NCBI GenBank assembly: GCA_030041495.1
Contig: JASHNT010000087.1
Span: 1 to 64,000 of the forward strand
Reading direction: 5' to 3'
Length of the DNA: 64,000 bases
Source of the DNA: Bryobacteraceae bacterium
Lineage (GTDB): Bacteria; Acidobacteriota; Terriglobia; Bryobacterales; Bryobacteraceae
In this document: positions 48,776 through 59,093 of the stretch, piece by piece
Layout of the letters: each line of letters begins with the position of its first letter
Numbering within the stretch: the first letter of the stretch is position 1
Program-made: the position numbers and the translations under genes
Notes under the pieces: generated by a model
The model's database searches: none
Told to the model about the DNA's origin: nothing
Seen by the model: only the letters and a program-made list of their open reading frames with translations

Positions 48776-48809
48776 GATGTGTATGATCCACTACGATTAT
48801 GCACATCAT
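48774..48809. promoter_or_regulatory. candidate VapBC operator, inverted repeat
   Basis: ATGATGTG (48774-48781) and CACATCAT (48802-48809), 8-bp perfect arms with partial symmetry in the centre. Confidence 0.6.
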
Positions 48810-49282
48810 CCCGACCACGACTCGAGCTGCCCGATGACGGCCGCGGCCAGCGGCTCCAGCGCGGCGCGGACGGGAGGCGTCAACTCGGCGCTCCATTCGG
48901 TGGAAAGAGGCTGGACGCCGAGAACGACGACTTCCTCAGGCGAGCCTCCGATAAGCTGCAGCGCGGTCATCAGGTCGGCGAATCCGAGCTGGTGAACGGA
49001 TGGTTTGCCGGGAAGTCCCTTCAGCGCCGCGCCTTCGATCCGGACCACGGTGCCGGGCGCCTGGCCGACATCAACCGCATCGACCACCAGCAAGCGGCGC
49101 AACCCGGAAATGCGCGAGAGCAGATTGAGGCCGTGCGTGCCTCCATCGAGCAACTCGACGCCGGAGGGGACGCGCGGGTCGTCCGCGAGCCGGTCGATCA
49201 GATGTACCCCGATTCCATCGTCGGAATGGACCAGGTTGCCGAGGCCGAGGACCATGGTCCCGGCGAGGGTTTCTGCCATCAT
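48806..49282 (-). CDS. hydrogenase maturation protease (HyaD/HupD family)
   Basis: MVLGLGNLVHSDDGIGVHLIDRLADDPRVPSGVELLDGGTHGLNLL. Confidence 0.92.
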   Translation of the reverse strand: MMAETLAGTMVLGLGNLVHSDDGIGVHLIDRLADDPRVPSGVELLDGGTHGLNLLSRISGLRRLLVVDAVDVGQAPGTVVRIEGAALKGLPGKPSVHQLGFADLMTALQLIGGSPEEVVVLGVQPLSTEWSAELTPPVRAALEPLAAAVIGQLESWSG

Positions 49283-50028
49283 GGCAATTTGGAATACAGC
49301 TCGTCGTCTTTTTTCAGGTCTTCTTCCGGGATCACTTTGTAGCCGATGAAAATGCTGTCCATCAGCCCCTTCTTTTCCTCGCGCGAAACCAGCATGGCCA
49401 GGTGGACGTGCAGGATGCCGAAAGCGATGAAGATCCACATCAGACAGAAGTGGATCAGCCGGATGTTGGGGGGGCTGATAAGGCGCGGAACCCAACCCAC
49501 GAAGAATCCGAGAATCGCGCTGTGCCGCAGCACGTTGTACATCACCAGGCCGGTGACAATTTCGACGAACACCATGGCGTAGAGGCCGACGTAAGACATC
49601 GCGGCCAGCGCGTTGTGGCCGATCTTGGAAACCGGCTCAGGCTTGACGAATAGGTAGAACTTGGCCATTTCCACCATTTCGCGGAACTGCTGCTTGCGGT
49701 AAGGGACGTAACTGCGCCAGCGGACCCAGCGGTTTCCCGCGAAGAACAGATACATGCGCAGCACGAACAGCGCGATGAAGATCATGGCAAAGACTTCGTG
49801 GACAAAGCGGAATTCGCCCATCAGGAACGGGTTGACCTGGCCCACGATGTAGGGATCGTGAATGTAGTAGCCGGTGACGCTGAGCACTGCGATACAGATC
49901 ACGATGCCCCAGTGCACCAATCGCAGAGGATATTGCCACACGTAGACGGACACCGCCCGGCCCATCGGCACGGTAGGATGGTGGCCATCGCCGGTCTGGA
50001 TGGCGGGAAGATGATTTACGGGTGTCAT
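49279..50028 (-). CDS. Ni/Fe-hydrogenase b-type cytochrome subunit
   Basis: YVWQYPLRLVHWGIVICIAVLSVTGYYIHDPY...FRFVHEVFAMIFIALFVLRMYLFFAGN. Confidence 0.93.
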   Translation of the reverse strand: MTPVNHLPAIQTGDGHHPTVPMGRAVSVYVWQYPLRLVHWGIVICIAVLSVTGYYIHDPYIVGQVNPFLMGEFRFVHEVFAMIFIALFVLRMYLFFAGNRWVRWRSYVPYRKQQFREMVEMAKFYLFVKPEPVSKIGHNALAAMSYVGLYAMVFVEIVTGLVMYNVLRHSAILGFFVGWVPRLISPPNIRLIHFCLMWIFIAFGILHVHLAMLVSREEKKGLMDSIFIGYKVIPEEDLKKDDELYSKLP

Positions 50029-50042
50029 GAGCAGCCTCCTTC

Positions 50043-51755
50043 CTACCGCACGTTGGGAAGCGTAAACCTGCGGCCGTTAGCGTCGAGCACGTGCACCGCG
50101 CAGGCGATGCACGGATCGAAAGAGTGAATGGTGCGCAGAATTTCGAGCGGCCGGTCCGGATCGGCGACCGGCGTATTCAGCAGCGAGGCCTCATAAGCGC
50201 CGCGCTGACCCTGGCCGTCGCGGGGGCCGGCGTTCCAGGTGCTCGGCACCACTGCCTGGTAGTTCTTGATGGACCGTCCGCTGATTTCAACCCAATGGCC
50301 CAGAGACCCGCGCGGAGCCTCATGCCAGCCGTAGCCCGCAGCGTGATCCGGCCAGGTGCTGGGATCCCAGCGAACCGGATTGAAAATCGCGGTCTTGCCG
50401 TGAGACAGGTTATTGTCCAACTCATCCACCCAGTCTTCCAGGTGCTTGGCCATAATCTGGGTTTCGAGAGCCCGGGCGGCGATGCGGCCCAGCGTTGAGA
50501 AGAGCACCGCTGGCTGGGCATTCAGCGCTTTTAGAGCGCCGTTGACCGCCGCCCGGATCTCTGGCTGGCCCGCGGCGTAACCGACCACCATGCGCGCCAG
50601 CGGTCCCACCTCCATCGGCTTGCCGTCGTAACGCGGCGATTTCAGCCAGGAGTATTTCTTGTCGACGTCCAGTTGTTCGAAAGGCGGCTTCGGGCCGGTG
50701 TACTTGGGATTGGTTTCACCCACCGAAGGATGCTTGCCGTTGCCGTTCCCACCCGAGTATTCGTACCAGGAATGATCCACAGCTTCAGTGATTTTTCCCG
50801 GATCGACCGGCAGCACCTTGCTGATGTCGTGGTTCATCACGATGCCGCGAGGGAACAGGAAAGAGCTGGGATCGTTGGCGCCGCTTGAGCCGTAATCGCC
50901 GTAACACAGGAAGTTGCCCAGACCCTCGCCGCGCGAAAACCAGTCGCTATAGAGCGGCGCGATGGCCAGAACGTCGGGGATATAAACCTGGTCGACGAAC
51001 TTGCGCGCGCTTTTTGCCAGGTCGCGGAGGAAGGTAATCGTGTCCGGATTGATGACCGCTGCGGGCTCATTGGGGTCCATGGCGGTGGTCATGCCGCCGA
51101 CCAGGAAGGTTTGCGGATGCGGATTCTTTCCACCCAAAGCCGCATGAATACGGATAAAATCCTTCTGCCAGGCGAGCGCTTCGAGATAATGCGCCACGGC
51201 CAGCAGGTTCACCTCCGGCGGCAGCTTGTAGGCCGGATGACCCCAGTAGCCGCTGGCGAACAGGCTCAACTGGCCGCTATCGACCACGCCTTTAACGCGC
51301 TGTTGAATGCCCCGGAAATAGGTGGTGGAGGATTTCTCGTAATCGGAGATGGATTGCGCGATCTGCGAAGTTTTCGCCGGATCGGCCTTGAGCGCCGCAG
51401 CGACATCCACCCAGTCCAAAGCGTGCAGGTGATAGAAGTGGATCACATGATCCTGCACCATCTGGGAGCCGGCGATCAGATTCCGGACTATATGGGCGTT
51501 GTCGGGGACTTCGATTTGCAGCGCGTTTTCGACCGCGCGCACGCTGGCAATGGCGTGGACCATGGTGCAGACTCCGCAGATGCGCTGCGCCCAGATCCAG
51601 GCTTCGCGGGGGTCGCGGCCTTGCAGGATCATCTCGATGCCGCGGAACATGGTGCCGGAGCTCCAGGCGTCGGAGATTTTGCCTCCTTCGAGCTGGGCTT
51701 CAATGCGGAGATGGCCTTCAATACGATTGACGGGGTCGACCACCAGGCGTGCCAT
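50043..51755 (-). CDS. [NiFe]-hydrogenase large subunit
   Basis: RICGVCTMVHAIASVRAVENAL and C-terminal SFDPCIACAVHVLDANGRRFTLPNVR. Confidence 0.96.
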   Translation of the reverse strand: MARLVVDPVNRIEGHLRIEAQLEGGKISDAWSSGTMFRGIEMILQGRDPREAWIWAQRICGVCTMVHAIASVRAVENALQIEVPDNAHIVRNLIAGSQMVQDHVIHFYHLHALDWVDVAAALKADPAKTSQIAQSISDYEKSSTTYFRGIQQRVKGVVDSGQLSLFASGYWGHPAYKLPPEVNLLAVAHYLEALAWQKDFIRIHAALGGKNPHPQTFLVGGMTTAMDPNEPAAVINPDTITFLRDLAKSARKFVDQVYIPDVLAIAPLYSDWFSRGEGLGNFLCYGDYGSSGANDPSSFLFPRGIVMNHDISKVLPVDPGKITEAVDHSWYEYSGGNGNGKHPSVGETNPKYTGPKPPFEQLDVDKKYSWLKSPRYDGKPMEVGPLARMVVGYAAGQPEIRAAVNGALKALNAQPAVLFSTLGRIAARALETQIMAKHLEDWVDELDNNLSHGKTAIFNPVRWDPSTWPDHAAGYGWHEAPRGSLGHWVEISGRSIKNYQAVVPSTWNAGPRDGQGQRGAYEASLLNTPVADPDRPLEILRTIHSFDPCIACAVHVLDANGRRFTLPNVR

Positions 51756-51756
51756 G

Positions 51757-52875
51757 TTAATTCTCCCTTCCTTGTTGCGGGGTGGTTTCGGCCGCAGGTT
51801 CGGGCTTAGGCACGGGCTTGATCATTTTGATGAGTCCGTGAGCGGTGACTCCGGCGATGGTCGCTCCCACCAGCCCGACGCCGATTTCACCCGCCGTGAC
51901 TTCGACGCCGAAGCCGGGCACGTTGGGCACGCGCTCATAGAACGGCGACATGTGGTCCCAGAAGCGCGGCGCGGCGCAGGCGATGCAGCCGTGTCCCGCG
52001 CGGACCGGCCAACTGGTATGGTCGTTCCACTGTACAATCGGGCAGTTGAAGGTCCCCACCGGACCTTTACAGCCCATTTTGTACAGGCACCATCCCTTGC
52101 GATGGCCCTCATCGCCCCATTCGGTGACGAAGCGGCCGGCGTCGTAATGGGCGCGGCGCTCGCACTGGTCGTGAATGATGCGGCCGTAGGCGAACAACGG
52201 ACGGTTGTACTGGTCGAGCGCGGGAAGGTCGTTGAAGGTGAGATAGTGAACCAACACCGCGGCGGTATTGGCCGCATTGTGCGGGCACCCCGACATATTG
52301 ATCACCTTGATTCCCGGAACGGCTTCGTGCACGCCGAGCGCGCCGGTGGGGTTGGGATTGGAACGGACCAATCCCCCGTCGAAGGCGCAGGCGCCGACCG
52401 CGATGGTCGCCGCGGCGTTGCGGCACACCGTCTCGGCGATCTCCATGGCGGAATGGCCGCCGATGGTGCAATAGACTCCGTCATCGCCGGTCGGGATGGC
52501 GCCCTCCACGACAACCAGATACTTCCCCTTCTCCTCTTTGACCACGCGATCCAGGATGGCCGTGGCATGCCCGCCCGCGCCTGCCATGATCACTTCGTGA
52601 TATTCCCAAGAGAGCAGGTCGAGCACGACATCGGCGACGTCGGGATGGCTCGACCGTAACATCGATTCCGAGCAGCCGGTGCAATCCTGGAATTGCAGCC
52701 AGACCAGCACGGGTTTGCGCGCCTTGCCCACGGCGGCGACGGTCTGGGCCAGGTAGCGCTCCGGCAGAGCCAGGGTCGCCAGCACACCGCTGCAAAACTT
52801 CACGAGTTGCCGCCGGGTGATGCCGCGCTTGGCGAGCGCCTGTTTCAGTTCAAGATCCTGTGAAAGCATGGCCAA
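51757..52875 (-). CDS. [NiFe]-hydrogenase small subunit with Tat leader and C-terminal anchor
   Basis: TRRQLVKFCSGVLATLAL; VWLQFQDCTGCSESMLRS; MSGCPHN; GHGCIACAAPRFWD. Confidence 0.96.
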   Translation of the reverse strand: MAMLSQDLELKQALAKRGITRRQLVKFCSGVLATLALPERYLAQTVAAVGKARKPVLVWLQFQDCTGCSESMLRSSHPDVADVVLDLLSWEYHEVIMAGAGGHATAILDRVVKEEKGKYLVVVEGAIPTGDDGVYCTIGGHSAMEIAETVCRNAAATIAVGACAFDGGLVRSNPNPTGALGVHEAVPGIKVINMSGCPHNAANTAAVLVHYLTFNDLPALDQYNRPLFAYGRIIHDQCERRAHYDAGRFVTEWGDEGHRKGWCLYKMGCKGPVGTFNCPIVQWNDHTSWPVRAGHGCIACAAPRFWDHMSPFYERVPNVPGFGVEVTAGEIGVGLVGATIAGVTAHGLIKMIKPVPKPEPAAETTPQQGREN

Positions 52876-52911: not shown

Positions 52912-53646
52912 TTAAATGGGATGGGTGGCCAAAGTCATCATGACCTCGGCTTTTTTGCGCCCGGCGCGGGCGTCGAGCCACTTCATCCAGCGGTCGAACC
53001 CCGCTCCGGTGGTGCAGGAAGTCTCGATGATCTCGATCTCCGGGTGAATGCGGCGGGCGTTTTCGCGCGCCAGCTCCGGTTTGAAAGGAACATGCGGCAG
53101 CAGATCGACCTTGTTCAGAATCATCAATTCGGACTTGCGGAAGATGCCCGGGTACTTGAGCGGTTTATCTTCGCCTTCGGCCACGCTGAGCACCACCACC
53201 TTGGCGTCCTCGCCCAGATCGTAGCTAGTGGGACAGACAAGATTCCCGACGTTCTCGATCAGCAGCAGCTCGAGCTCGTTTTCGTGATCGCGCACAACGC
53301 CGCGCTCAGGCGGTGCGCTCAGGTCGAACCAGCCGTTCAAATGCGCCTCAATCATGCGGGCGTCGAGATGGCAGCAGCCGCCGGTCGTGATCTGGCGCAC
53401 CGGGTATCCGTAGCGCTGGAGACGAATCGCATCGTTCTCAGTCTGGATGTCCCCGGTGAGCACGGCGGCGCGAGTGTGGCGGGGCAGGCGCTCCAGGGTC
53501 CGTTCGAGCAGCGCGGTTTTTCCGGCCCCTGGCGAGCCGATGAAATTCAGCGAAAGAGTGCCGGCCGAGGTCAACGACTGGCGAAGTTGCGTCGCGATGC
53601 GGTCGTTCTCACTCAAGACCTTCTTCTCAATCACGACTTGATTCAT
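52912..53646 (-). CDS. hypB: hydrogenase nickel incorporation GTPase HypB
   Basis: LNFIGSPGAGKTALLERTLERL...LTGDIQTENDAIRLQRYGYPVRQITTGGCCHLDARMI...ILNKVDLLPHV. Confidence 0.95.
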   Translation of the reverse strand: MNQVVIEKKVLSENDRIATQLRQSLTSAGTLSLNFIGSPGAGKTALLERTLERLPRHTRAAVLTGDIQTENDAIRLQRYGYPVRQITTGGCCHLDARMIEAHLNGWFDLSAPPERGVVRDHENELELLLIENVGNLVCPTSYDLGEDAKVVVLSVAEGEDKPLKYPGIFRKSELMILNKVDLLPHVPFKPELARENARRIHPEIEIIETSCTTGAGFDRWMKWLDARAGRKKAEVMMTLATHPI

Positions 53647-53659
53647 ACCGATACCTCGT

Positions 53660-53962
53660 TCACGCCGACACCTCGTGGGCCGCTCCCGCGCGCTGATCCG
53701 GGGGTGTGTCTTCGGTGTCATCGAGCTCAAGATGGGCCAGATCAAGGTCTTCCGCGCCGGGCCGCCAGTCGATGGCCAGCTCCAGCGGCTCGAACTCGCT
53801 TCCCTTGACCAAAGCCTCGAAACAAAAACGGAGGGATTCGGGGTCGACTCCCGCGTATTCGCCAATGCGGACGCCAACCTTGACGGCGCGGCGCCCGGGG
53901 TAACGGTCGAGCTCGCGGTGAACCGCCTCAAGGATTGAATTGGCTACGCCCATCTCATGCAT
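53660..53962 (-). CDS. hypA: HypA-like nickel metallochaperone lacking zinc-ribbon cysteines
   Basis: MHEMGVANSILEAVHRELDRYPGRRAVKVGVRIGEYAGVDPESLRFCFEALVKGSEFEPLELAIDWRPGAEDLDLAHLELDD; positioned next to hypB. Confidence 0.85.
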   Translation of the reverse strand: MHEMGVANSILEAVHRELDRYPGRRAVKVGVRIGEYAGVDPESLRFCFEALVKGSEFEPLELAIDWRPGAEDLDLAHLELDDTEDTPPDQRAGAAHEVSA

Positions 53963-54050
53963 ACTCGACTTCCTCAGGCGACGCGAGATAAATCCAACCG
54001 CCGACTTCACGCCTACCCCGCTTGCATTTGAACCTCCACGCAAGCCGGCA

Positions 54051-54338
54051 TCAGTTACCCTCACCACCTCGTGCACCCTCACCGCCCTCCGGAACGAGGC
54101 CTTCCTCTTCCAGCGCGCCGATCTCCTCCAAATATGCAAATGTCCGCGCAGCTTCTTCCTCATCTACGCGGGTTAGGGCAAATCCTACGTGGACTAACAC
54201 GTAGTCACCGACGCGAACCTCCGGAGTAAAGGCCAGGCTGACGTTTTTGCGCACGCCGCAGAAGTCGACGCAGGCGGAGCGGAACGCAGGATCGGCATCT
54301 TCTACGCTCAAAACTTTTCCAGGAACAGCCAGACACAT
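54051..54338 (-). CDS. hypC: hydrogenase maturation chaperone HypC
   Basis: MCLAVPGKVLSVEDADPAFRSACVDFCGVRKNVSLAFTPEVRVGDYVLVHVGFAL. Confidence 0.94.
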   Translation of the reverse strand: MCLAVPGKVLSVEDADPAFRSACVDFCGVRKNVSLAFTPEVRVGDYVLVHVGFALTRVDEEEAARTFAYLEEIGALEEEGLVPEGGEGARGGEGN

Positions 54339-54415
54339 TCCAGGCCGCCTCCCAGCGGCTCCTATTTGAGTTTGAACTGTTTCATCTAGCGTGCAATTTA
54401 GACGCCACTATTCTC

Positions 54416-54475
54416 AGGTCAAATCGGCCTCTACTCCTAGGGGAATGGGTCAAATCCCGCAGCCGTGGGTCATAT
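54416..54475. promoter_or_regulatory. direct-repeat cluster in the hypC/cytochrome divergent intergenic region
   Basis: AGGTCAAAT (54416), GGGTCAAAT (54447) and GGGTCATAT (54467): steps of 31 and 20 bp. Confidence 0.4.
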
Positions 54476-54536
54476 GGCGCGACATCGAAATTCCGATTTG
54501 AGAAACGACCGGCTTGGGTTATAACGGAGGTTAAGT

Positions 54537-55643
54537 ATGCGCCAATTGTCGATCGTTTTCGCCTTCGCTGCCGGATTGAACGCGGCGACGGTCGCGGCGG
54601 ATTCGTCCCGCGGAAGCGAGTTGTTTGGGACGCTGGAATGCGTCCAATGCCATAGCATCAACGGCCAAGGAGGCAAGGCCGGTCCCGACCTGGGGCGCCG
54701 CGTGGATCGCGGATTCACTCCGGCCTCGCTCGCGGCCACCATGTGGAATCACGCCCCGGCCATGTGGGCGGCCATGAAAGAGCGCGATGTCGCCGCCGGT
54801 AAACTCGATGAGCAGGCCGCCATGGACCTGTTCGCGTATTTCTACTCGGCCCACTTTTTCGATAAACTGGGCGACGCCGGCCGCGGCAAGCAGGTCTTTT
54901 CCTCCGGCCATTGCTCGGAATGCCACGGCTTGACCGAAGCCCAACCGAAATCGCCGGACGCCAAGCCGGTGTCGGAGTGGACCGCCATCGGGCGCCCCAT
55001 CGAACTGGTGGATGCCATGTGGAACCATGCGGCAACCATGCGGCCGGAGTTCGCCAGGCGTAAGCTGAGCTGGCCGGAGCTGACCAGCCAGGATCTGACG
55101 GACCTGCTGGTGTACGTGCGGAACTTGCCCTCCACGCGCGAAAAACCGGCCCGGGTCGAAATCACGGCCGGGACCAACGGCGAAGCGCTATTCATGTCCA
55201 AAGGCTGCGCGGCGTGCCACACTGGCGGCAACACCTTAGGACCGAAGCTCAAGGGCATGACGCTTGGCGACATCGCCGTAGCGATGTGGAACCATGAGCC
55301 GAAAATGCCGCCCAATGCGCCGCAACTAAGCACCGACGAGATGCGCGATCTGGTCAGCTATGTGTGGGCCGGGCAGTTCTTCGAAGATTCGGGCAACGCG
55401 GCGGCAGGAGCAAAGGTCTTTTCCTCGAAACATTGCGCGAGCTGCCACGAGGGCTCCGGCACGGCACCCAAACTGGCGGGGAAGACCTTCACCGGCGCGG
55501 CTATGGTCTCCGCGCTGTGGCATCACGGGCCCCGCATGCTGGACGAAATGAAGACGAAAGGCGGGGCGTGGCCGAGATTTGACGATAACGACATGGCCAA
55601 CCTGCTCGCCTATCTCAATAGCGGCGGAAACGCTAAGAAATAG
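54537..55643 (+). CDS. four-CxxCH c-type cytochrome with four tandem repeats
   Basis: CVQCH, CSECH, CAACH, CASCH; matching MWNHAPAM, MWNHAATM, MWNHEPKM, LWHHGPRM; signal peptide. Confidence 0.92.
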   Translation: MRQLSIVFAFAAGLNAATVAADSSRGSELFGTLECVQCHSINGQGGKAGPDLGRRVDRGFTPASLAATMWNHAPAMWAAMKERDVAAGKLDEQAAMDLFAYFYSAHFFDKLGDAGRGKQVFSSGHCSECHGLTEAQPKSPDAKPVSEWTAIGRPIELVDAMWNHAATMRPEFARRKLSWPELTSQDLTDLLVYVRNLPSTREKPARVEITAGTNGEALFMSKGCAACHTGGNTLGPKLKGMTLGDIAVAMWNHEPKMPPNAPQLSTDEMRDLVSYVWAGQFFEDSGNAAAGAKVFSSKHCASCHEGSGTAPKLAGKTFTGAAMVSALWHHGPRMLDEMKTKGGAWPRFDDNDMANLLAYLNSGGNAKK

Positions 55644-55681: not shown

Positions 55682-56371
55682 ATGGTGATGGCGGTACGAA
55701 TTCACCTGCGGGTGTTGCTCCTCCGGCTCATGGCAAATGGGCTGATCCTGGCGGGGACCGGCGCGCTAGCGTACTGCGGGTGGTCGGTGGGAAAAGGGAT
55801 GCTGTATCAGTACGCGCAGGAAGAGCAGTTCGATTCAGCCACGGCGGCCGCTCCGGAAGCCGGCCCCAGGCTTCCTGGGGAAATCTCTGAAGGAACGCCC
55901 GCGCGGACGGAGGCGATTATTCCCAAGCCCCTCCGCCCGCGACTGAGCATGCTGATGCCGCCGGACCCGCGATTGATCGGACGGCTGGAGGCTCCTTCGA
56001 TCGACCTCGCGGTGATGTTGCGCGAAGGCAACGACGACGACACGTTGAGCAAGGCCGCCGGCCATCTGCCCTCCAGCGCATGGCCGGGCGAGCTCGGAAA
56101 CTTCGTCGTTCTGGGTCATCGGGATACGTTCTTCCGCCCCTTGAAAAATATCGAGCGCGGCGATTTAATCCGTGTGGTGACGCACCACGGCCGATTCACT
56201 TACAGCGGCGAGTCTTTTGAAGTCACCGATCCGGAATCGGTTAAAATCGTCGAGGGCGGACCGGATCCGATCCTGACCCTGGTGACCTGTTTCCCGTTCC
56301 GTTACATCGGACCAGCGCCAAAACGTCTGGTGGTTCATGGCCGCCTGGCTGCCAACGGGAAAACGGATTGA
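55682..56371 (+). CDS. class D sortase
   Basis: N-terminal transmembrane segment; [26 protein letters not shown]...[24 protein letters not shown]. Confidence 0.9.
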
Positions 56372-59093
56372 TCTTCGCCGCATGCCTGACAACCCGCCCC
56401 CATCGATGGTCCAGCGCAGAGCGCCTCTCGAAGTGTTCTTCCATCCGCGCAATGTGGCCGTAATCGGCGCGACCGAAGAACCTTCGAGCGTGGGGCATTC
56501 CGTAATGAAAAATCTCACCGAGGAGTCCTTCGAAGGACGGGTTTTCCCGGTGAACCCGAAGCGGACCACGGTGATGGGCTTGCCCTGCTACCCCAATGTC
56601 GGAGCGGTGCCGGTGAAAGCCGACCTGGCGGTGATTGTGACCCCCGCGCGGACGGTCCCCGCAATTATCGGCGAGTGCGCGAATGCGGGAGTCGAAGGCG
56701 CGATCATCATCTCCGCCGGATTCAAAGAAACCGGCGCGCACGGCGCGGAATTGGAAGCGGAAATCCTGCGCCAGGCGCGGCGAACCGAGATGCGGATCGT
56801 GGGGCCGAACTGTCTGGGCATCATGCGGCCGGACTACGGATGGAACGCGACCTTCGCCAACTCCATGGCGCGCCCCGGAAATCTCGGGTTCATCAGCCAG
56901 AGCGGAGCGCTGTGCACAGCGATCCTGGACTGGAGCCATCGCGAGATGGTCGGCTTCAGCGCGTTTGTTTCCGTGGGCTCCATGCTGGACGTGGGATGGG
57001 GAGACCTGATCCAGTACCTGGGCGACGATCCGAAGACGCACAGCATCATCATCTACATGGAATCGGTGGGAGACGCGCGAGCGTTCCTGTCCGCGGCGCG
57101 TGAAGTTGCGCTCTCAAAACCGATCATCGTGATCAAGCCCGGACGCACGGAGGCCGCGGCCAAGGCTGCCGCGTCCCACACCGGAGCTCTGACCGGGCAG
57201 GACGACGTGCTGGACGCGGCGTTCCGGCGCTGCGGCGTAGTGCGCGTCAACACCATCGCGGAGCTGTTCAACCTCTCCGAAGCGCTCGATAAGCAGCCTC
57301 GCCCGAAGGGGCCGCACCTGACCATCGTCACCAATGCCGGAGGGCCCGCCGTGCTGGCAACCGACGCTCTGCTCAGTGACGGAGGGCGCCTGACGGAGTT
57401 GTCTCCGGGTACCGTGGAGCAGCTCGACCGTTGCTTGCCGCGGCACTGGAGCCATCAGAATCCGATCGACATCATCGGCGACGCGGACGCAGGGCGCTAC
57501 GCGAAAGCGGTCGGCATCGCGGCCAAGGATCCGGCGACCGACGGTCTTCTGGTGATCCTCGCGCCGACGGGTTTGAGCGATCCGACAGCGGTCGCGGCGC
57601 AAGTGAAACAGTTCGCCAAGCTGGACGCGAAGCCGGTGATCGCAAGCTGGATGGGCGGGCAGGACATCGCGGCCGGCGAAAAGCTCCTCAGCGAGGCCGG
57701 GGTTCCGGTCTACGGCTACCCCGATTCCGCCGCGCGGGTGTTCAACCTGATGTGGAGCTATAGCGCCAATTTGCGGGCTCTGTACGAAACGCCGCAGCCG
57801 ATCGATCCCCAGCATCCGGAGGCGGTGACAAAGGCGTCGAGCATTGTCGAGACGGCGCGCGCGAAGAATCGCGAGCTGCTGACAGAGGCCGAATCGAAGA
57901 GCCTGCTGAAGGCGTACGGAATTCCAACCGTGGAGACCTGGATCGCGGCCAGCGCGGATGCGGCCGTGGAGGCGGCGGCGGGGATCGGTTACCCGGTGGC
58001 GCTGAAGCTGCACTCGGAGACCATCACCCATAAAACCGACGTTGGCGGCGTGCAGCTTAATCTGCGCGACGAAGCCGCGGTGCGCTCGGCGTACCAGGCG
58101 ATCCAAGACTCAGTCACGCGAATCGAGGGGCGCGAGCATTTTCTTGGCGTGACCGTCCAGCCTATGGTGCGGGCGGAAGGTTACGAATTGATCTTGGGCT
58201 CGAGCGTCGATCCGCAGTTCGGGCCGGTGCTGCTGTTCGGCAGCGGAGGCCAGCTCGTCGAGGTGTATAAGGACCGGGCCATCGGTCTGCCTCCGCTCAA
58301 CACGACTCTGGCGCGGCGTCTGATGGAGCGCACCAAAATCTTCACGGCTCTGGGCGGCGTGCGGGGACGAAAACCGGTGGACCTGGTGGCGCTGGAACGC
58401 TTGCTGGTGCGCTTCAGTTACCTGGCGGCGGAGCAGCGCTGGATCAAGGAAATCGATATCAATCCGCTGCTGGCATCGCCGGAGGGGCTTCTTGCGCTGG
58501 ACGCGCGCGTGGCGCTGCATCCGGTGGGCGTGACGGATTCGCCGCGCACCGCGATCCGGCCGTATCCGGTCCAGTACGTTCAGCCGTGGCGCTTCGAGGA
58601 CGGCGCGGAGGTGCTGATTCGCCCGATCCGTCCGGAAGACGAGCGGTTGATGATCGGGTTCCACGCCAAACTGAGCGAGAAGAGCATCTATCAGCGCTAT
58701 TTCCATCTGCTGACTCTGGACCAGCGGACATCGCATGAACGGCTGGTGCGGGTGTGTTTCGGCGATTACGATCGCGAGATCGCATTGGCAGCCGAAATGC
58801 GGAGCGGAGAAGCTGGAGAGCGTGAGCTGGTGGCGGTTGGCCGGCTGAGCAAGGCGCACCTGATGAACGAAGCGGAACTGGCGGTGTTGATCGTGGATGA
58901 GTATCAAAGCCGCGGCTTGGGAAGCGAGCTGGCGCGGCGGCTGATCGATATCGCGCGGGCGGAGAAGCTCGACCGGATCACGGTCGAGATCCTCGGCGAC
59001 AACCGCTCCATGATCGAAGTCTGCCGGGGAGTGGGATTTCAACTGGATCACCTCGAAGACGGCGTGATCCACGGCGTTTTGGAACTTGTATAG
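56337..59093 (+). CDS. ADP-forming acyl-CoA synthetase fused to C-terminal GNAT acetyltransferase (start possibly 56406)
   Basis: [28 protein letters not shown]...[10 protein letters not shown]...[16 protein letters not shown]-terminal [32 protein letters not shown]. Confidence 0.92.

Follow-up and report, generated by a model that had tools for sequence, protein, structure and literature searches.

A gene for a tetraheme cytochrome, here called CYT4, faces an [NiFe]-hydrogenase operon in a 64,000-nucleotide stretch of DNA from a Bryobacteraceae bacterium (the window). This siting raises the question of which electron transfer system the cytochrome serves. The initial annotation described CYT4 as divergent from the hydrogenase genes, and this is borne out: hypC of the minus-strand hupSLC-hypBAC operon lies opposite, 198 bp away (Table 1). 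It also suggested two roles, as an electron acceptor of the hydrogenase or as a wire across the periplasm.

A tetraheme cytochrome with a conserved motif

The CYT4 ORF begins with ATG behind a good Shine-Dalgarno sequence (GGAGG) and encodes 368 amino acids. On inspection its N-terminus resembles a signal peptide and no membrane anchor is seen; the protein is putatively periplasmic. The four CxxCH sites and the four motifs MWNHAPAM, MWNHAATM, MWNHEPKM and LWHHGPRM are all present as first annotated, and the proposed tandem array of mono-heme domains is recovered by Pfam as four class-I-type cytochrome c domains. The heme pattern is not due to chance, because Pfam Cytochrom_C matches four stretches with E=2.8e-30. 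Scores exceed the gathering thresholds for both PF00034 (105.9 bits vs 21.3) and PF13442 (98.7 vs 27), with four stretches each, and the repeats are ∼23-30% identical among themselves.

The motif was also said to be unusually conserved, and the alignment agrees. An alignment of 49 homologs, reaching down to 30% identity, shows no change at any of the four CxxCH sites, and ∼95% or more of the alignment cells for the motif's Trp, His and final Met retain the residue. For motifs 1-4 the counts are 48, 48, 49 and 48 for Trp, 47, 46, 47 and 46 for His, and 49, 48, 44 and 48 for the terminal Met. Homologs from a search that was not seeded with the motif also carry (M/L)WxHxxxM, nearly all of them in four copies.

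Table 1. Features of the CYT4-hydrogenase locus (window coordinates unless a locus is named)
Feature	Position	Strand	Evidence
Hydrogenase maturation protease (start approximate)	48806..49285	-	homologs at same position in relatives' hup operons
hupC, hydrogenase b-type cytochrome	49279..50028	-	TIGR02125 above cut-off
hupL, large subunit, both NiFe-binding CxxC motifs (RICGVC, DPCIAC)	50043..51755	-	
hupS, [NiFe]-hydrogenase small subunit, Tat-type RR leader, proximal-cluster motif CTGCSES	51757..52875	-	
hypB (start approximate)	52912..53646	-	family scan
hypA	53660..53965	-	family scan
hypC, hydrogenase maturation chaperone	54051..54338	-	family scan
hypC-CYT4 divergent intergenic region, 198 bp	54339..54536	.	
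CYT4, exported tetraheme cytochrome, four tandem class-I-type heme domains	54537..55643	+	Pfam, motifs, alignment, AlphaFold
CYT4 putative Sec signal peptide MRQLSIVFAFAAGLNAATVAA, lipobox absent	54537..54599	+	by-eye sequence inspection
CYT4 heme site 1, CVQCH	54639..54653	+	
CYT4 motif 1, MWNHAPAM	54741..54764	+	
CYT4 heme site 2, CSECH	54912..54926	+	
CYT4 motif 2, MWNHAATM	55017..55040	+	
CYT4 heme site 3, CAACH	55206..55220	+	
CYT4 motif 3, MWNHEPKM, last Met weakest conserved (44/49)	55284..55307	+	
CYT4 heme site 4, CASCH	55434..55448	+	
CYT4 motif 4, LWHHGPRM	55515..55538	+	
Truncated hypC fused to RIC/ScdA-like ORF, also in L177	L005:2575-2670	-	

The neighbouring operon reads hypC-hypA-hypB-hupS-hupL-hupC-protease and its catalytic motifs are complete; hypD is intact elsewhere, on contig C2 of the same genome. 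HupS reads CTGCSES and GACAFDGG, without the supernumerary Cys of a [4Fe-3S] proximal cluster; this is the standard motif and not that of the O2-tolerant group 1d. hypA and hypC adjoin directly in the window and in genome G014; relatives L142 and L119 hold two more hyp genes between them, hypE and hypD by appearance. The hypC-CYT4 intergenic region contains a single promoter-like match, on the minus strand and near chance level. On the other side of CYT4 lie genes for a sortase, an acetyl-CoA synthetase and UspA. The class D/E-like sortase gene (55682-56371, +) starts 38 nt past CYT4; such a gene is unexpected next to a periplasmic cytochrome, and none of the relatives compared has one beside CYT4. 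An ADP-forming acetyl-CoA synthetase-GNAT fusion gene occupies 56337-59093 (+), and in L008/L162 the C-terminal piece of such a gene adjoins the mtr operon.

CYT4 orthologs belong to MtrCAB operons

CYT4 homologs were searched in GTDB contigs and in genomes of the same family, and neighbouring ORFs were clustered without bias. Within the order, CYT4 occurs in 145/257 genomes; the hydrogenase, traced by HupL, is rarer (44/257). Close orthologs close an operon of the clusters c9, c2, c10 and CYT4, often followed by c14 and c7. Cluster c9 is an OmcA/MtrC decaheme cytochrome (TIGR03507, 448 bits; cut-off 209) and c2 a DmsE/MtrA decaheme cytochrome (TIGR03508, 260 bits; cut-off 192). The c10 barrel matched no Pfam or NCBIfam HMM; its AlphaFold model finds 6r2q_B, the MtrB of the Mtr complex, as the best PDB match (TM 0.62-0.64, E 6.8e-12), which identifies it at the level of predicted structure as an MtrB/PioB barrel. 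All four c14 copies tested score over the NapC/NirT gathering threshold, the N-terminal region of c14 is hydrophobic, and the protein contains six heme motifs, one of them CGQTCH. The operon order around close orthologs is thus mtrC-mtrA-mtrB-CYT4(-NapC-like). Counting distinct loci at >=42% identity with enough upstream sequence, the MtrB barrel lies directly upstream of CYT4 in 38 of 47 orthologs. It is this partnership with MtrCAB that supports the reading of CYT4 as a wire across the periplasm.

The position has been described before. Baker et al. (2022; PMC8805035) reported 'c-cyt group 5', a tetraheme cytochrome predicted to be periplasmic and encoded immediately 3′ of mtrB in Acidobacteriia Group 5, and the orthologs of the window's CYT4 hold that same place in Bryobacterales. 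By lineage and operon position CYT4 is assigned as an ortholog of c-cyt group 5, and the cytochrome family is already published. The same study mentions no hydrogenase and found no inner-membrane quinone oxidoreductase near Group 5 mtrCAB (PMC8805035), whereas here a NapC/NirT-type gene follows CYT4 at many loci. The inner-membrane donor not seen in that study could be its product, c14.

More distant CYT4 relatives, from Acidobacteriota, Rokubacteria, Gemmatimonadota and others, are encoded within gene clusters for Qrc-like complexes (QrcABC/NrfD; molybdopterin/FeS/NrfD) or for Rieske/cytochrome b complexes (loci L027, L031, L036, L059, L066; L044, L049). The CYT4 architecture is therefore a versatile carrier that serves several quinone-linked complexes. 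These loci also suggest quinone-linked complexes that include a tetraheme partner and have hardly been described.

Displacement of CYT4 in the window's genome

Unlike c-cyt group 5 in its published siting, the window's CYT4 stands outside the mtr operon, beside hup/hyp. The mtrC-mtrA-mtrB genes of this genome are on contig C40, followed by the NapC-like c14, and both decaheme proteins have 10 CxxCH each, with scores of 433.5 bits for MtrC (TIGR03507, cut-off 209.3) and 250.8 bits for MtrA (TIGR03508, 192.2). The usual CYT4 slot is empty: ∼7 nt separate the mtrB stop from the NapC-like start. A CYT4 remnant between these two genes was considered and ruled out, as ∼7 nt leave no room. The sole full-length CYT4 of the genome is the window copy, and so lies away from mtrB. 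Phylogenetically this copy groups (support 91/95) with mtr-linked orthologs from its own genus and from near relatives. By gene content and phylogeny, CYT4 was displaced from the mtr operon to the hydrogenase locus and not duplicated. No homology was found between the hypC-CYT4 intergenic region and mtr upstream regions.

Two further cytochrome sequences of this genome deserve mention. A second CYT4-like sequence on contig C42 (L004:8984-9806; G000:C42:56992-57805) is broken, with one internal stop and its ORF in pieces, and is apparently a paralog in decay. Behind the NapC-type gene in the mtr locus lies a gene for a small triheme c7-like cytochrome (L113:12586-12924), whose product could be a stand-in for the displaced CYT4.

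Recurrent linkage of hydrogenases and electron conduits in the order

As a conserved neighbour of the hydrogenase, CYT4 fails: HupS/HupL were found at 0 of 79 CYT4-homolog loci with flanks of up to 8 kb, and the conserved partner is MtrCAB. Exact hydrogenase-CYT4 adjacency is restricted to the window's genome. CYT4 is near hup/hyp in only 2/45 HupL loci (the window and G085), with a hypC-linked copy also in G220; some hydrogenase-bearing genomes are without CYT4 (G014, G032, G084) and most CYT4 genomes are without this hydrogenase. The neighbourhood test proposed with the first annotation accordingly has a divided outcome. The direct pairing is not conserved, but in several Bryobacteraceae the hydrogenase does lie beside MtrCAB or NapC-type parts.

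Order-wide, Mtr or NapC-type parts are near a group-1 hydrogenase at 9/45 HupL loci; these span 7 genera and both hydrogenase clades. The arrangements differ. The hyp genes are divergent from CYT4 in the window, from mtrA-mtrB in G014 (with c14-c7) and again from mtrA-mtrB in G084, where mtrC lies beyond hup. G085 reads hup...hypC...hypA-hypB-mtrC-CYT4. hupS is divergent from c14-c7 in G157 and from c7-c14-mtrC-mtrA-mtrB in G179 and G182. In G036 and G065 a relative of the NapC-type c14 sits within the hup operon; without these two, the count is 7/45 loci in 5 genera. With two EET (extracellular electron transfer) loci per 6.3-Mb genome, we estimate the chance per locus at ∼0.8%. For the 40 loci inspected at that stage this gives p ∼4e-8 for 7/40 and p ∼2e-5 for 5/40, one per arrangement, both rough values given that loci share ancestry, several contigs are incomplete and the per-locus chance is assumed.

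Two genomes of the window's own genus connect the two systems. On one contig, G220 (HupL 82%) carries hypC, an acetyl-CoA synthetase-GNAT homolog, mtrA, mtrB, CYT4 and c7; the synthetase homolog, 60% identical to the window's, lies between hypC and mtrA (L171). A misassembled window was considered as well, and this combination of hypC, synthetase homolog and CYT4 in G220 argues against it at the level of synteny. In G218 the first ∼31 hypC codons run in frame into an ORF that resembles RIC/ScdA by eye, and this fusion sits immediately upstream of mtrCAB-CYT4-c14, in divergent orientation. No HupL was found in G218, and the hypC fragment beside mtrCAB is apparently the scar of a lost hydrogenase locus. 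Because of the synteny in G220, G218 and G014/G084, we suggest an ancestral divergent locus of hup-hyp and mtrCAB-CYT4 that was later reshuffled, the window having kept only CYT4.

These loci also bear on the idea that the siting is accidental, a random rearrangement having moved CYT4 and left a carrier now unconnected to H2. The uniqueness of the arrangement to the window's genome would fit, as would the sortase, acetyl-CoA synthetase and UspA genes downstream. Against it stand the recurrence of the linkage, for which the rough chance expectation is <1 locus, the single G220 locus and the hypC scar in G218, and we consider an accident unlikely.

Fold, heme ligation and comparison with known carriers

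The AlphaFold model of CYT4 is confident and all-helical (pLDDT 88.4, pTM 0.83), and each WxHxxxM motif lies within a long helix. In ordinary class I cytochromes, by contrast, the distal Met is carried by a loop. Aligned with cytochrome c6, domain 4 has an invariant Trp (WPRF) at the canonical Met position, and in domain 3 the motif Met falls near the canonical place (KMPP...LSTDEM). The motif Met or His is missing in some aligned rows, never both together. Met is our first guess for the distal ligand and is moderately favoured; His comes second. A His ligand is not far-fetched, because MtoD is a bis-His class-1 shuttle (PMC4412085). Foldseek with the whole model returned no match below E 0.001, probably due to the tandem arrangement, and single domains matched ordinary cytochromes c.

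Tandem CxxCH cytochromes of the QcrC/CcoP type are among the best PDB and NCBIfam sequence matches. All of these matches are below curated cut-offs, and CYT4 differs in its four domains, its WxHxxxM helix and the lack of a visible anchor. The periplasmic cytochromes CctA and FccA have multiheme folds other than that of CYT4, and the CctA NCBIfam profile does not match it. In Shewanella they serve, as CYT4 may, the step from the inner membrane to MtrA (PMC8805035). MtoD of Sideroxydans lithotrophicus is likewise a shuttle with the class-1 fold, its gene lying with those of an MtrAB-like conduit; it has a single, bis-His-ligated heme, against four hemes and a His...Met motif in CYT4 (PMC4412085). 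A precedent for joining a conduit to a hydrogenase is Geobacter extEFG, an outer-membrane conduit in a Hox-type [NiFe]-hydrogenase transcription unit (PMC6148476); it departs from the mtr three-gene pattern, and its enzyme is bidirectional and Hox-like, unlike the cytochrome-b-linked group-1 hydrogenase here.

The likeness to MtoD invites the thought that the same conduit runs in reverse, so that CYT4 would accept electrons that MtrA has drawn from Fe(II) or another donor outside the cell, and deliver them to a bc-type complex, an oxidase or quinone. Class-I-type heme domains would suit a high-potential carrier; MtoD, from the mto cluster and a proposed inward carrier in iron oxidisers, has a potential of +155 mV (PMC4412085), and the Rieske/cytochrome b genes that co-occur with distant homologs fit inward flow too. 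The linkage to uptake-type hydrogenases and NapC-type cytochromes nevertheless fits export better than uptake, and we regard the reversal as a serious but unlikely alternative.

Proposed function

CYT4 is probably a soluble periplasmic wire of MtrCAB-type EET that has been displaced in this genome, in a lineage that links H2 oxidation to EET at the level of its genes. Electrons from H2 would pass through HupSL and HupC to menaquinone, with other donors possible. The quinol would be oxidised by an inner-membrane NapC/NirT-type cytochrome, most likely the product of the gene directly downstream in the mtr operon. From there electrons would cross the periplasm on CYT4 to the decaheme MtrA in the MtrB barrel, and leave through MtrA/B/C to an acceptor outside the cell, for example Fe(III) or humics. 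There are counterpoints: the hydrogenase-CYT4 adjacency is confined to one genome, distant relatives mark the family as a versatile carrier, and His/Met ligation, if that is what the CYT4 hemes have, may set their potentials high for a reductive chain fed by menaquinol. That HupSL passes electrons straight to CYT4 in the periplasm of this organism, bypassing quinone, is very unlikely, for although the divergent hypC/CYT4 pair at 198 bp, the empty mtr slot and the Tat-type leader on the small subunit would suit a direct acceptor, the operon retains its normal one, the cytochrome b HupC, and the adjacency is not conserved. As part of the MtrCAB wire, CYT4 in its siting beside the hydrogenase hints that these bacteria may use H2 to power electron export. 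A bolder proposal, which we hold only tentatively and think doubtful, is that Bryobacteraceae repeatedly built a co-regulated, one-unit H2-to-mineral module from a group-1 hydrogenase, a NapC-type cytochrome, a CYT4-type wire and MtrCAB.

Outlook

Acidobacteria rank with the most abundant bacteria in soil, and carry MtrCAB systems of putative function. In the open-access full-text literature we found no description of a hydrogenase-MtrCAB linkage in Acidobacteria or Bryobacteraceae. The tetraheme His...Met helix motif of CYT4 lends itself to a clean test of how hemes are ligated in EET shuttles. If the hydrogenases and MtrCAB are functionally coupled, the donor reported missing for Group 5 MtrCAB gains a concrete candidate in the NapC-type gene next to CYT4, and the consumption of H2 in anoxic soil would be coupled directly to the reduction of iron or humics. 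Should the one-unit module prove true, soil Acidobacteria would be H2-driven extracellular reducers.
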